This document shows positions 54,385 through 59,696 of a stretch of 64,000 nt of DNA, one piece after another (the stretch's first letter is position 1; the number at the start of each line of letters is the position of its first letter). The translations under genes were made by a program, and so were the position numbers. Location of the stretch: NCBI GenBank assembly GCA_002050465.1, contig MWYX01000059.1, positions 1 to 64,000 on the forward strand. The letters are read 5' to 3'. The stretch is from Chitinophagales bacterium 65-1 (lineage in GTDB: Bacteria > Bacteroidota > Bacteroidia > Chitinophagales > Chitinophagaceae). The notes beneath the pieces are model-generated. The model made no database searches. It had not been told where the DNA came from and saw only the letters and a list, made by a program, of their open reading frames with translations.

Positions 54385-55116
54385 TTATTTTCCCCCATTA
54401 GCTTTAAGATCAGCTATACAATTTGCGTCTAACGAAGGTATGGAATTAGCCGTTGTACCTGTTTCAATGGAATAATACATCAGGCATTTGTTATTAGTAC
54501 AATGAGCACCATTAGCTGCATCAATATGATTGGTTTGCATGGATGAACCCTGGTTTACCAAACCCATTAAATGCCCTAACTCATGTTGAAGAATTGTACT
54601 CATTAATGCTGTTCTGGTAACCTGTCCTGCACCACCGGATTTATCATTTATTGCTTTTCCAAAGATGCATATCGAAGTGTTCCAGTATGAAGTACCTATT
54701 GAAGCAGGACTTGAAGAATAATATCCATCAGTTACTAATACATGCACAGCAATACTGTTATTACCCGTATAAATAGTGCGTTTCTTTTTTTCTATGCTTA
54801 CAATTTCACTTAATGCCAAAGCAGACTTACCACTGGCTTCAATTTGCTGCTGATTTACATTTATTCCTCCCGGCTTATTAATATGTTGCTTTAAAAAATT
54901 AACCATATTATTAATACTGGAGGTGTCAATTGCATATCCGGGCATATAGTGAATTTCAATTTGTAATTCGGAATACGGATCGGTAGAGAGCAGACTATGT
55001 GCTGATGAGCCCAGCGTTTTATAATCCCTGTTACCTAAAGCATCTTCTTTTTTACAGGCGTTGGAAAATACTATAGTAAATAACAGGAAATAAAGAAAAT
55101 ATCTTTTTTTATACAT
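54385..55116 (-). CDS. Putative zinc metalloprotease lipoprotein (metzincin-like)
   Basis: Lipobox SNAC; HELGHLMGL ... HCTNNKCLMYYS (HExxHxxG plus HCx4CxM). Confidence 0.75.
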   Translation of the reverse strand: MYKKRYFLYFLLFTIVFSNACKKEDALGNRDYKTLGSSAHSLLSTDPYSELQIEIHYMPGYAIDTSSINNMVNFLKQHINKPGGINVNQQQIEASGKSALALSEIVSIEKKKRTIYTGNNSIAVHVLVTDGYYSSSPASIGTSYWNTSICIFGKAINDKSGGAGQVTRTALMSTILQHELGHLMGLVNQGSSMQTNHIDAANGAHCTNNKCLMYYSIETGTTANSIPSLDANCIADLKANGGK

Positions 55117-55159
55117 GTTTTACAATATCCTGCAAAAATAGTTTGATAATGTATAAAAT

Positions 55160-55190
55160 AAAAAAACCGGGTCAGTTTAGAGACCCGGTA
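55160..55190 (-). terminator. Intrinsic terminator after the 55.2-kb gene
   Basis: Minus strand ACCGGGTCTC-n-GACCCGGTTTTTT. Confidence 0.8.
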
Positions 55191-55209
55191 TAAATAATTA
55201 ATTACTAAT

Positions 55210-55902
55210 TTACTCAGCGCAATGATGGGTATTAATCCAAGTACTAATAACATCAGCTGCATTTTTTGCATTACCGCAATTGGCTATGCTACCATTAGAT
55301 TGATTTGGTAAAAAAGTATCAGTTAATTTAGATTGAGTTGAAAGCCAACATTCAATTGTAGCAACAGCAGTAGTAAGAGAAACATCTGCTGCAATATCAA
55401 CACCACTCAGCAAAATTGCAGAAAGCTGCGTAAATGCTTTTTTAGAATCTTCTATACCACCTTTGTTAGAAGAATTCCATATTGCAAGTCCTTCTGCATT
55501 GGTATATGTCTTTCCGCCGATCGTTACGGTTTTTAAGCCAAGAGAAGGATCTGTTGCATCTACATACCATGGATGAATGCCATTACGATGATTTACGTTA
55601 TTTGCAAACCAATAACCCTGTGAAAAAGAGCAATCTTCTTCCTCTATCTTACAACCAATGCCTGCGTTTGGGTAAGTGGCAGCGCAGCAACCTGTGTTTG
55701 TGCCAGATTTAAACAATACATTAAGATCAGCAGTACCCCAATTACCATTCAATACCATTCTGTATTGCGTTGGAGTTCTGCCTTTAGTGCCATAATCAAA
55801 TTTGAAAACATTCTCTAAACTACATCCACCTTTGGTTAAACTTGGATCAGGTTCCGTATCAAGATTTGTGATATTAACCCATTCTGTACCATTAAATTTT
55901 AG
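55210..55902 (-). pseudogene. 5'-truncated secreted hypothetical gene
   Basis: Open frame 55902-55210 (LKFNGTEWVNITNLDTEPDPSLTKGGCSLENVFKFDYG...CSFSQGYWF...) lacks a start and signal peptide; an in-frame TAG at 55905-55903 separates it from a 37-codon upstream frame. Confidence 0.5.
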
Positions 55903-56049
55903 CTACCTCTGGGCGTGTTCAAAGCCATTGAGTGAAAAGGAACTTTCATTTGGTGGATTTTGTAAAACCTCAACAGAATTTTTTTCTGGAAGGTGGTTTG
56001 CGTTGTTTTGTTGCATACATTTGCTTTTTAATTGTGAGACAATATTTGC

Positions 56050-56079
56050 AACCCTTCATTTACGGTGAAGGGTTTTTTT
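56050..56079 (+). terminator. Plus-strand intrinsic terminator with no plus-strand gene upstream
   Basis: AACCCTTCA-TTTACGG-TGAAGGGTTTTTTTA. Confidence 0.75.
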
Positions 56080-56428
56080 ATTTTATAATTACATCCCAAT
56101 ACATTTTTATTTCAAAATCAGTTGTGGTGCCTGTTAGCGTTTCCCTCATACAGCCGTATAATGGTTTTCTAAAATCAATTTGCCGAGGGCAACCGGATAT
56201 ATTTTCTACCTTAAAATCAAATGATATATCCTGCTTACCATATTGCTTTGCAGGTACAATATGTTTTGCTGTTAACCAGTAAACTTTATCATTGCTGTAA
56301 AAAACATCATAGAATAATGTTTTAGAAGTTGGATTGATAGATACAGAAGCTGTAAAGAGGTTTGGTTTTTCTATGTGCTCTTTTGAACAAGCTGTTAAGA
56401 ATAATAATATGGTAAATAATTTTCTCAT
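56078..56428 (-). CDS. Small hypothetical lipoprotein
   Basis: MRKLFTILLFLTAC signal peptide and lipobox. Confidence 0.65.
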   Translation of the reverse strand: MRKLFTILLFLTACSKEHIEKPNLFTASVSINPTSKTLFYDVFYSNDKVYWLTAKHIVPAKQYGKQDISFDFKVENISGCPRQIDFRKPLYGCMRETLTGTTTDFEIKMYWDVIIK

Positions 56429-56443
56429 TTGTTTTTGTTTTTA

Positions 56444-56476
56444 AAAAAAAGCCTCAGCGTAGAAACGCAAGGCTTT
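56444..56476 (-). terminator. Minus-strand intrinsic terminator for a transcript from the 56.5-57.1 kb block
   Basis: Minus strand AAGCCT-TGCG-TTTCTA-CGCTG-AGGCTTTTTTTT. Confidence 0.65.
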
Positions 56477-56674
56477 AACTTGATTTGACTTTACCCTCTT
56501 TAATAATCTTTGTTTACCTTTTATCTGTCCAGGGATTATATTCTATGCTGCGTTTACTCCTGCCATCCCTGTTGTTTTTAATTAAGTTTATAACAATATC
56601 ATGCACGCTCCTCATTAAAGGAGGTACTATTGGATAGTTTGAATAAGGAATACGGTATTTCTACTATTTATTAT

Positions 56675-56742
56675 GGTACTTATACCCTGTCAGGCCGCAA
56701 AGGAAATGTTATTTTTTAGTATCCTAATTAAAGTTACCCACA
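56675..56742 (-). promoter_or_regulatory. Repeat copy 1 of a ~68-bp promoter-like unit (minus orientation)
   Basis: GGTACTTATACC-n7-GCCGCAAAGGAAAT...AATTAAAGTTacCCACA; minus strand contains CCTTTGCGGCC. Confidence 0.5.
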
Positions 56743-56960
56743 TTTCACAAGAATGGTTTTTGACTTATAGATTCTATATTCTAATTTTTTGAATAGATGA
56801 ATCTTTTTAAAACTCTACAATTCCAGTTATAAATTAGTACAAACCATTCCCATATGGAATAAATTAGATTGTTGGTTTTTGTGATGAAGTTTCTTTTTTA
56901 GGGAAAATTCTTAGCAATCCGGAGGGTACAAGGAAAGATGGTATGAATACAATTTAAAAA

Positions 56961-57027
56961 GGTATTTATACCAATATGGGCGCAAAGGAAATCTATTTAT
57001 TTTAATTCTTAATAAAAGTTGTCCACA
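56961..57027 (-). promoter_or_regulatory. Repeat copy 2 of the ~68-bp promoter-like unit (minus orientation)
   Basis: GGTATTTATACC-n6-GGCGCAAAGGAAAT...AATAAAAGTTgtCCACA; minus strand contains CCTTTGCGCCC. Confidence 0.5.
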
Positions 57028-57191
57028 GAAACTTAATACCCAGTTACGCATTTCTTTGAACTAATTCGATAAGCCTTATTTTTATTGAAATAGTAAACCT
57101 AAGGCATTAAAAGCTGAACCTATAACATTTGTATCCTTTATCCTTCCTTAAATACAGATATTTAGGATAATCAGTTTTATAAAAAAATATC

Positions 57192-59696
57192 TTGATACTA
57201 ATAAAAACCAAGGGATATAGCATCATTTCAGATTGGCTTGCAGCTAAAGGGAACCAACCATTTGCTTTCCAGGAAGAAACATGGCAGCATATAATTGAAA
57301 AAAGATCAGGATTGGTGAATGCGCCAACAGGCTGCGGAAAAACTTATTCTATTTTTCTTGGCGCAATAATAGATTTTATTAATAATCATTCAACCGATTA
57401 CAAAACCAAACAGAAGAACGGATTACAATTATTATGGATAACACCTTTACGTGCATTGGCTAAAGATATTGGCCGTGCAATGCAAGAAGTTATAGTAGAG
57501 CTGGATATGAAATGGGAAATAGGCATTAGAAATGGTGATACAGAAATAAGTGAACGGCAAAAACAAAAGAGGCAAATGCCGGAAGTGCTAATCATAACTC
57601 CTGAGAGCATGCAGCTGCTTTTAGCACAGAAACATTATCCTGATTTTTTTAAAACATTAAAAATTATTGCTGTAGATGAATGGCATGAATTATTGGGAAG
57701 TAAAAGAGGTGTACAAGTAGAATTGGCTATTTCAAGATTAGTAGCATTAAATAAGCTTCAAGCCGGAAGCCGGAAGCTGCAAGTATGGGGAATATCAGCA
57801 ACCATTGGAAACCTAGAACAAGCTAGGGAAGTGCTGCTCTCCCCGCTTTCCATGTGGAGAGGGGAAGGGGGTGAGGTAGTTACCGCAGAAATAAAAAAGA
57901 AAATTGAGATAGAATCTTTAATACCAGACGAGATAGAAACGTATCCCTGGGCAGGACATATTGGGATAAAACTCGTTCACAAAGTGATCCCTATTATTGA
58001 GCAAAGTACAACTACACTCATCTTTATAAACACAAGAGGAATGAGTGAGCAATGGTATCAGGGAATATTAAATGCGGCTCCCGAACTGGCCGGGGCTATT
58101 GCCTTACATCATGGAAGCGTTGAGCTTGAGCTTCGCAGCTGGATAGAAGAAAATCTGCATACAGGAAAATTAAAAGTGGTTGTCTGTACCTCAAGTCTTG
58201 ATTTAGGAGTTGATTTCAGGCCTGTTGAAACGGTAATACAGGTTGGCTCACCCAAAGGCGTTTCAAGATTTTTACAACGGGCAGGAAGAAGCGGACATCA
58301 GCCGGATGCTACCAGTAAAATTTATTTTCTTCCAACCCATTCATTGGAATTAGTTGAAGCCGCAGCATTGAAAGAGGCCACAGAAAAAAGATTTATCGAG
58401 GATCGTGAGCCAAGAATTTTATGCTTTGATGTACTGATACAATATTTAAGTACGCTTGCTATTTCAGATGGATTTAACCAAGAGGAACTTTATAAAGAAA
58501 TAATATCAACACATTGTTATAGTGAAATTACAGAAGATGAATGGCATCAGCTTTTACAATTTATAACTGCAGGTGGCATTGCACTGCAGCAATATGATGA
58601 TTTTAAAAAAGTAGAGATAATAAATGGTATGTATAAAATAAATAACCGGAGGATGGCCATGCGGCATCGCATGAACATAGGGACGATTGTTGGTGAACCC
58701 ATGATGAAGGTTAAATTTATCAGTGGTGGCTTTATTGGGGCTGTTGAAGAATGGTTTGTTTCAAGATTGCAGCCGGGGAATGTTTTTACGCTGGCTGGCA
58801 GAAACCTGGAGTTTGTAATGATAAAAGACATGACCGTATTGGTAAGAAAATCCAACTCGCAAAAATCTATGGTGCCCAGCTGGCAGGGAAGCAGAATGCC
58901 GCTTTCAGCAAAGCTTGGTTTTATGCTGAGAAAGAAATTTGACGAGGCCGCTGACCTCTCTAAATCTCTCCTGAAGGGGAAGACTTGCGACGAACTTACC
59001 GTCTTGAAACCTCTCTTCGAATTACAACAATACTTATCTCATATACCAAAAGAAAATGAACTGCTGATAGAGCAAATTGAAACCAAAGATGGCTATCATC
59101 TTTTCGTTTTTCCTTTTGAAGGAAGACTGGTGCATGAGGCTATAGCAGCTATATTGGCATATCGAATAAGCCAGATAACACCAATAACATTTTCCTTAGC
59201 GATGAATGATTACAGCTTTGAACTTCTGAGCGATCAACCAATACCGGTTGATGATTCTAATGTATATGAATTATTTTCTCCAAACAATTTATTGAATGAT
59301 ATTCATAAAAGCGTGAACAGTTCAGAAATGGCAAGAAGAAAATTCAGGGAAATTGCTGTTATCGGCGGACTTATTTTCCAGGGGCTTCCGGGGCAACAAA
59401 AAAAGGCAAGACATATCCAGGCTTCTGCATCGTTGTTGTATAATGTGTTTGCAGAATATGATCCCAATAATCTTTTACTAAGACAGGCACATAATGAAGT
59501 AATGGAACAGGAAATGCAGGAAGCCCGTTTAAGAAATATGCTGGAACGAATTCAAAAAGGGAATATCATCATTACATTTCCAAAGCGGTTAACCCCATTT
59601 TGTTTCCCGGTTAAAGTAGATAGCTTACGGCAGGATCTTTCATCAGAAAAACTGGAAGACAGGGTAAAGCGTATGCAGATGCAACTTGAGAAATGA
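57192..59696 (+). CDS. Ligase-associated Lhr-type DEXH-box helicase
   Basis: NAPTGCGKTYS, WITPLRALAKD, DEWHELLGSKRGVQVELAISRL, WGISATIGN, RAGRSGHQPDATS; TTG start. Confidence 0.94.
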   Translation: MILIKTKGYSIISDWLAAKGNQPFAFQEETWQHIIEKRSGLVNAPTGCGKTYSIFLGAIIDFINNHSTDYKTKQKNGLQLLWITPLRALAKDIGRAMQEVIVELDMKWEIGIRNGDTEISERQKQKRQMPEVLIITPESMQLLLAQKHYPDFFKTLKIIAVDEWHELLGSKRGVQVELAISRLVALNKLQAGSRKLQVWGISATIGNLEQAREVLLSPLSMWRGEGGEVVTAEIKKKIEIESLIPDEIETYPWAGHIGIKLVHKVIPIIEQSTTTLIFINTRGMSEQWYQGILNAAPELAGAIALHHGSVELELRSWIEENLHTGKLKVVVCTSSLDLGVDFRPVETVIQVGSPKGVSRFLQRAGRSGHQPDATSKIYFLPTHSLELVEAAALKEATEKRFIEDREPRILCFDVLIQYLSTLAISDGFNQEELYKEIISTHCYSEITEDEWHQLLQFITAGGIALQQYDDFKKVEIINGMYKINNRRMAMRHRMNIGTIVGEPMMKVKFISGGFIGAVEEWFVSRLQPGNVFTLAGRNLEFVMIKDMTVLVRKSNSQKSMVPSWQGSRMPLSAKLGFMLRKKFDEAADLSKSLLKGKTCDELTVLKPLFELQQYLSHIPKENELLIEQIETKDGYHLFVFPFEGRLVHEAIAAILAYRISQITPITFSLAMNDYSFELLSDQPIPVDDSNVYELFSPNNLLNDIHKSVNSSEMARRKFREIAVIGGLIFQGLPGQQKKARHIQASASLLYNVFAEYDPNNLLLRQAHNEVMEQEMQEARLRNMLERIQKGNIIITFPKRLTPFCFPVKVDSLRQDLSSEKLEDRVKRMQMQLEK
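57753..57784. repeat. AAGC(T/C)-rich repeat AAGCTTCAAGCCGGAAGCCGGAAGCTGCAAGT in-frame in the helicase gene
   Basis: Internal GCCGGAA duplication; encodes KLQAGSRKLQV before WGISATIGN. Confidence 0.6.
57837..57877. repeat. GC-rich element CTCTCCCCGCTTTCCATGTGGAGAGGGGAAGGGGGTGAGGT in-frame in the helicase gene
   Basis: CTCTCC/GGAGAG inverted repeat plus G-rich tail; encodes LSPLSMWRGEGGEV. Confidence 0.7.
58955..58986. repeat. GC-rich element CCTCTCTAAATCTCTCCTGAAGGGGAAGACTT in-frame in the helicase gene
   Basis: Aligns with the htpG element read on minus, CCTCCCTAAATCCCTCCAACGGAGGGACTT. Confidence 0.65.

Follow-up and report, generated by a model that had tools for sequence, protein, structure and literature searches.

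The gap between the lipoprotein gene and lhr

The window (the whole stretch of 64,000 nucleotides analysed) belongs to an assembly of 1.96 Mb that is 79.5% complete. Between 51618 and 62071 it carries a ligase-associated repair cluster (TIGR04120-04123) that is interrupted: minus-strand genes part the ligase from lhr, and a PMT_2 glycosyltransferase-like gene parts lhr from pdeM. The ligase-associated exonuclease, ligase, DEXH helicase and PdeM all score above NCBIfam cut-offs, which bears out the placement of the block studied here inside a repair cluster. The block, 56429-57191, is a divergent gap with an orphan lipoprotein gene (56078-56428, minus) on one side and lhr (57192-59696, plus) on the other. 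It is AT-rich (29.6% GC versus 35%) and is a mostly non-coding stretch of what is probably a Bacteroidota genome. Its features and the adjoining lipoprotein gene are as follows.

56078-56428, minus strand: orphan putative lipoprotein of 116 aa with an LTAC lipobox seen by eye, the next gene downstream of the terminator
56444-56476, minus strand: intrinsic terminator, -14.9 kcal/mol, whose T-run stops some 13-16 nt short of the lipoprotein ATG
56514-56615, minus strand: 33-codon ATG frame, no homologue found, coding status doubtful
56654-56742, minus strand: repeat copy A (proximal), promoter/leader-like, identical to copy B in 65 of 95 aligned columns
56654-56664, minus strand: second arm GTAGAAATACC of copy A, outer GGUAU/AUACC pairs kept, hairpin -3.7 kcal/mol, z -1.8
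56675-56686, minus strand: near-palindrome GGTATAAGTACC of copy A
56698-56705, minus strand: -7-like box TTCCTTTG of copy A, with 5 of 6 fixed bases of TAnnTTTG, a frequency not above chance
56940-57027, minus strand: repeat copy B (distal), promoter/leader-like, 87 bits against a model built from copy B itself
56940-56950, minus strand: second arm GTATTCATACC of copy B, can pair with GGTATAAATAC, hairpin -5.7 kcal/mol, z -2.0
56961-56972, minus strand: near-palindrome GGTATAAATACC of copy B
56983-56990, minus strand: -7-like box TTCCTTTG of copy B, likewise with 5 of 6 fixed bases and a frequency not above chance

Apart from one weak 32% match to a lipoprotein, no family or homologue was found for the orphan lipoprotein. 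The spacer between ligase and helicase is itself variable among relatives. In the relative G008, whose Lhr is 90% identical, an antiporter gene joins ligase and lhr, and 54385-57190 is wholly absent. The spacer in G015 holds an antiporter and an MNT/HEPN-like pair, and in G010 an efflux adaptor precedes lhr, both judged by reading the sequence. The G015 pair occupies the antiporter-lhr interval (L036, about 508-1167) and resembles by eye a nucleotidyltransferase/HEPN pair of the MNT-HEPN toxin-antitoxin type. In the window, the spacer contains minus-strand genes, one of them, 55210-55758, a truncated fragment. It looks like part of a larger protein, as residues 1-43 of it match (50%) a frame of 1154 residues from one family genome. 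An open minus-strand reading that lacks a front part extends over 55210-55901. The neighboring 54385-55116 encodes a probable secreted or lipoprotein metallopeptidase, weakly archaemetzincin/reprolysin-like and under curated cut-offs.

The duplicated element and the terminator

The repeated thing is an element of about 94 bp with sharp edges, not a unit of about 285 bp. Copies A and B have the same orientation and are 68% identical, with one 1-nt indel and a longest perfect match of 12 bp. The first alignment paired 56693-56742 with 56978-57027 (74% identity, offset 285). The local self-similarity score of the block is 98, compared to a mean of 48.7 and a maximum of 80 in 1000 shuffles, and a maximum of 81 over 966 random real segment pairs of the window. 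The flanks are unrelated: 197 of 1000 shuffles score as well upstream and 706 of 1000 downstream. It is this sharp end of the likeness at both edges that defines the element. The preliminary description gave direct repeats of about 68 bp at 56675-56742 and 56961-57027, offset by 285-286. They are present at these places; their length is not as given, since the copies really span 57027-56940 and 56742-56654. The longer element takes in a second arm, GTAnnnATACC, beyond the repeats as first described. Its consensus begins with TGTGGnnAACTTTnATTAnGA; after AT-rich sequence that varies come ATTTCCTTTGCGnCC, a short variable spacer, GGTATAArTACC, further variable sequence and finally TAAATnGTAnnnATACC. 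The shared motifs already described, TGTGGnnAACTT, TTTGCG(G/C)CC and GGTATAAnTACC, are found in both copies, and TGTGGnnAACTT and GGTATAAnTACC are absent elsewhere in the window.

Two known kinds of site were considered for the element. The plus-strand 9-mers at 56734-56742 and 57019-57027 (TTACCCACA, TTGTCCACA) each differ at a single position from the DnaA box TTATCCACA, which is probably due to chance. A Xer dif-like site was weighed by eye and rejected for unsuitable spacing.

A minus-strand terminator had been proposed at 56476-56444, and it is borne out. Its 12-bp stem contains a bulge and leads into a T-run, and the stability of the hairpin (z -4.1) is reached by none of 200 shuffles. 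Hairpin terminators in 485 upstream regions of this genome are strongly biased to the sense strand (30 sense versus 4 antisense). This bias implies a minus-strand transcript above the terminator, present or past. Since a terminator within 45 nt of the ATG is common here (13 of the 485 regions), its nearness to the lipoprotein ATG is no evidence for attenuation. No second terminator is seen between copies A and B, so both copies would feed one unit.

A GGUAU...AUACC pairing is possible in both copies, which are too few sequences for covariation. The candidate transcripts of 247 nt and 536 nt fold no better than shuffles (leader z -1.1).

Promoter likeness, coding potential and relatives

The -7 box of Bacteroidota sigma-A promoters is TAnnTTTG (PMC9723704, PMC7366714). 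Promoter statistics were collected from about 1.05 Mb of this genome with a simple ORF caller. TAnnTTTG occurs 154 times in the sense and 94 times in the antisense direction in 76 kb of upstream regions, and 1142 times on both strands of the 1.05 Mb, an upstream enrichment of about 3.7 times the genome rate. CTTTGCG is also enriched upstream of genes (12 sense versus 3 antisense). TTnnTTTGC is not (14 versus 17), indicating that the A at the second position matters. Both copies read TTCCTTTG, with TT for TA at the first two positions, and thus neither contains TAnnTTTG. The minus strand of the block holds 8 boxes with 5 of the 6 fixed bases, against a shuffle mean of 9.1. A perfect TAnnTTTG is found on neither strand of 56429-57191, which leaves the lipoprotein gene with no better visible promoter.

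The repeats had been likened to the guaA promoter, TAACTTTGCGGCC. The likeness extends to 5 of the 6 fixed bases and fails at the TA, which is present in guaA. The repeats share the TTTG core and the CTTTGCG context with guaA and other upstream regions, and fit TACCTTTGCGCC-type sites save one base. They also have in common an upstream TGTGGnnAACTTT, which is not in the sigma-A (sigma-ABfr) consensus. From these sequences, it is plausible but unproven that the repeats are promoters, and they may be weak or activator-dependent ones.

The two short frames reported earlier both exist. The 29-residue frame as quoted has no start codon, and the 48-residue frame has an ATG for its last 33 codons only. 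No relative of the 48-residue frame was found in 150 genomes, its 33-residue ATG part has no match in phages or plasmids, and neither the 48- nor the 29-residue frame matches a Pfam or NCBIfam family. These searches gave no support to the suggestion of a micro-protein.

Pattern and model searches of the same genome recovered these two copies only, and a search for further copies, as the preliminary description had proposed, found none there, nor a convincing one in relatives. The element was not found in the other 19 genomes of the genus set (n=20), and the repeat model identified no relative in 399 family genomes beyond coding matches, the best of them in paaE. A BLASTN search with the block against 150 relatives gave a best foreign match of 41 bits, at chance level. 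The exact composite pattern matched 4 times in about 85,000 GTDB genomes, and not in viral contigs. All four matches were judged to lie inside coding sequence, three from listed ORFs and the fourth (L122) from its own sequence, and were rejected as relatives. Weak model matches of 17-20 bits were rejected as well: 16 of the 17 examined (16 from relatives, one from the same genome) overlap predicted ORFs. Plasmid and phage BLASTN searches with the element gave no matches or chance ones. A convincing relative is thus absent from the 20 genus, 399 family and about 85,000 GTDB genomes, plasmids and phages searched. Rfam at gathering and relaxed thresholds gave nothing credible in the block; such a match is not required of a new small RNA.

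Outside its own genome, the repeat model scored best in two paaE (reductase) genes of the 399 genomes, with 27.4 (about 27.5) bits for one distant gene and 21.8 bits for the other. Both matches fall at the same place and on the same strand, at the P-x-G-N-F ... A-F-A-A-G-S-G-I-T-P motifs, with a per-genome E-value of 6e-6, or about 0.0025 over the 399 genomes. The repeats resemble the coding sequence of PaaE-type ferredoxin/flavin reductases (FNR family) in the order of the PxGNF and AFAAGSGITP codons and in their rough spacing. They differ from it in having broken frames, no upstream match and no significance with protein or DNA profiles. The gene was not found in this 79.5%-complete assembly and is present in most of the genus. 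A relic of paaE was therefore attractive at first, and most follow-up tests were then negative. One modest local match came from tblastn (E 0.008 within the block). A DNA profile built from 30 paaE genes did not match the block, and frameshift-tolerant protein alignment at strict settings was equalled by 46 of 200 shuffles; by this method copy A taken alone is borderline, with 10 of 200 as good, and copy B is not significant. An early lenient alignment beat 150 of 150 shuffles and was discarded, because its path was a mosaic and did not run through the motif in the expected way. The paaE genes of the closest relatives do not score best. Upstream of the motif there is no in-register likeness, and in the first 24 nt downstream it is slight (0.44-0.45 in register versus 0.27-0.28 off register). 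Direct alignment of copy A with the same-genus paaE of G010 beat 300 of 300 shuffles and 200 of 200 real intergenic segments; with that of G008, 3 of 300 shuffles and 5 of 200 segments were as good. Copy B was not above controls in alignment with same-genus paaE. Because paaE was picked after a large search, the copy A alignment is not proof, and we treat the likeness as probably due to chance.

Leader, small RNA or debris

Our tentative choice is to read the block as a minus-strand unit specific to this lineage, a leader or small RNA that precedes the orphan lipoprotein gene. Each 94-bp repeat would be a start-plus-leader module, with the upstream TGTGGnnAACTTT, the -7-like box and a weak 5' hairpin/palindrome. 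Transcription from copy B would start near 56975 and give about 530 nt, and from copy A near 56690 and give about 245 nt. The one terminator, immediately ahead of the lipoprotein start, would stop both transcripts, yielding leader or small RNAs, and some read-through may express the lipoprotein. The two copies share an orientation and face a strong terminator on their own strand. That the sharing is confined to about 94 bp, with unrelated flanks, is expected if only a control module is common to them. The repeat and the terminator are real; that the repeats start transcription, and that the unit has any regulatory role, we infer. In the collections searched, no sequence conservation that would point to selection on the element was found. 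The preliminary description had suggested tandemly duplicated small transcription units. A minus-strand repeated element ending in a real terminator agrees with this; the duplication does not extend that far, as only about 94 bp are common, the downstream sequences are unrelated and there is one terminator.

A start site and a Rho-independent terminator mark the high-confidence intergenic small RNAs of B. thetaiotaomicron (PMC7366714). The block does have an intrinsic terminator at the 3' end. Like the intergenic terminated small RNAs of Bacteroides and Flavobacterium (GibS, Rfp18), it combines a start-like element with a same-strand intrinsic terminator at about 245 nt. It differs from them in that it is not conserved in relatives and its structure is at background.

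We slightly prefer this leader or small-RNA unit to non-functional debris, which is a serious possibility. If the ligase-lhr gap was rearranged in this lineage, the block could be decaying, with an old fragment, possibly a coding relic, present twice and a leftover terminator. The changing gap content of relatives, including the absence of 54385-57190 from G008, the open fragment without a front part at 55210-55758, the AT-rich composition, and the two paaE matches at one place together with the missing gene all fit debris. However, most paaE tests are negative (DNA profile, frameshift alignment, upstream register, closest relatives), and uniform decay leaves unexplained why just these 94 bp are common to the copies. 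Copy A (and B) could also produce stand-alone small RNAs or a 33-residue micro-protein unrelated to the lipoprotein gene. The terminator, the same-strand repeats and the 33-codon ATG frame between copy A and the terminator are consistent with such products, which the lack of an Rfam match, a peptide relative, a structure signal above shuffles and a second terminator for copy B makes unlikely. It is quite improbable that the 94 bp are a start-and-leader module newly arisen in this lineage, perhaps from reductase-coding sequence, that was copied once and drives tandem small RNAs or a leader governing the orphan lipoprotein within the DNA-repair cluster. Least probable of all is the proposed phase-variable cassette, in which recombination between the repeats would act as the switch. 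Two direct repeats do lie 285 bp apart, but copies that are 68% identical, with at most 12 bp matching in a row, are too dissimilar to recombine efficiently, and there is no pair of inverted repeats that convincingly flanks a promoter.

The element is probably ordinary. It looks like a small RNA or gene leader of local origin, or else like a remnant in decay, and neither outcome would change the field. If transcribed, it would add one more lineage-specific small RNA or leader, and illustrate how such elements come about where the ligase-associated repair cluster has a variable gap. If it is not transcribed, it cautions against taking TTTGCG-containing repeats as promoters in AT-rich gaps.

At the other edge of the gap, lhr (57192-59696) lacks an ATG at the place where G008 has one, reading ATACTA... 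there, compared to ATGCTG... in G008. The frame would need a TTG start at 57192, exactly where the non-conserved gap begins.
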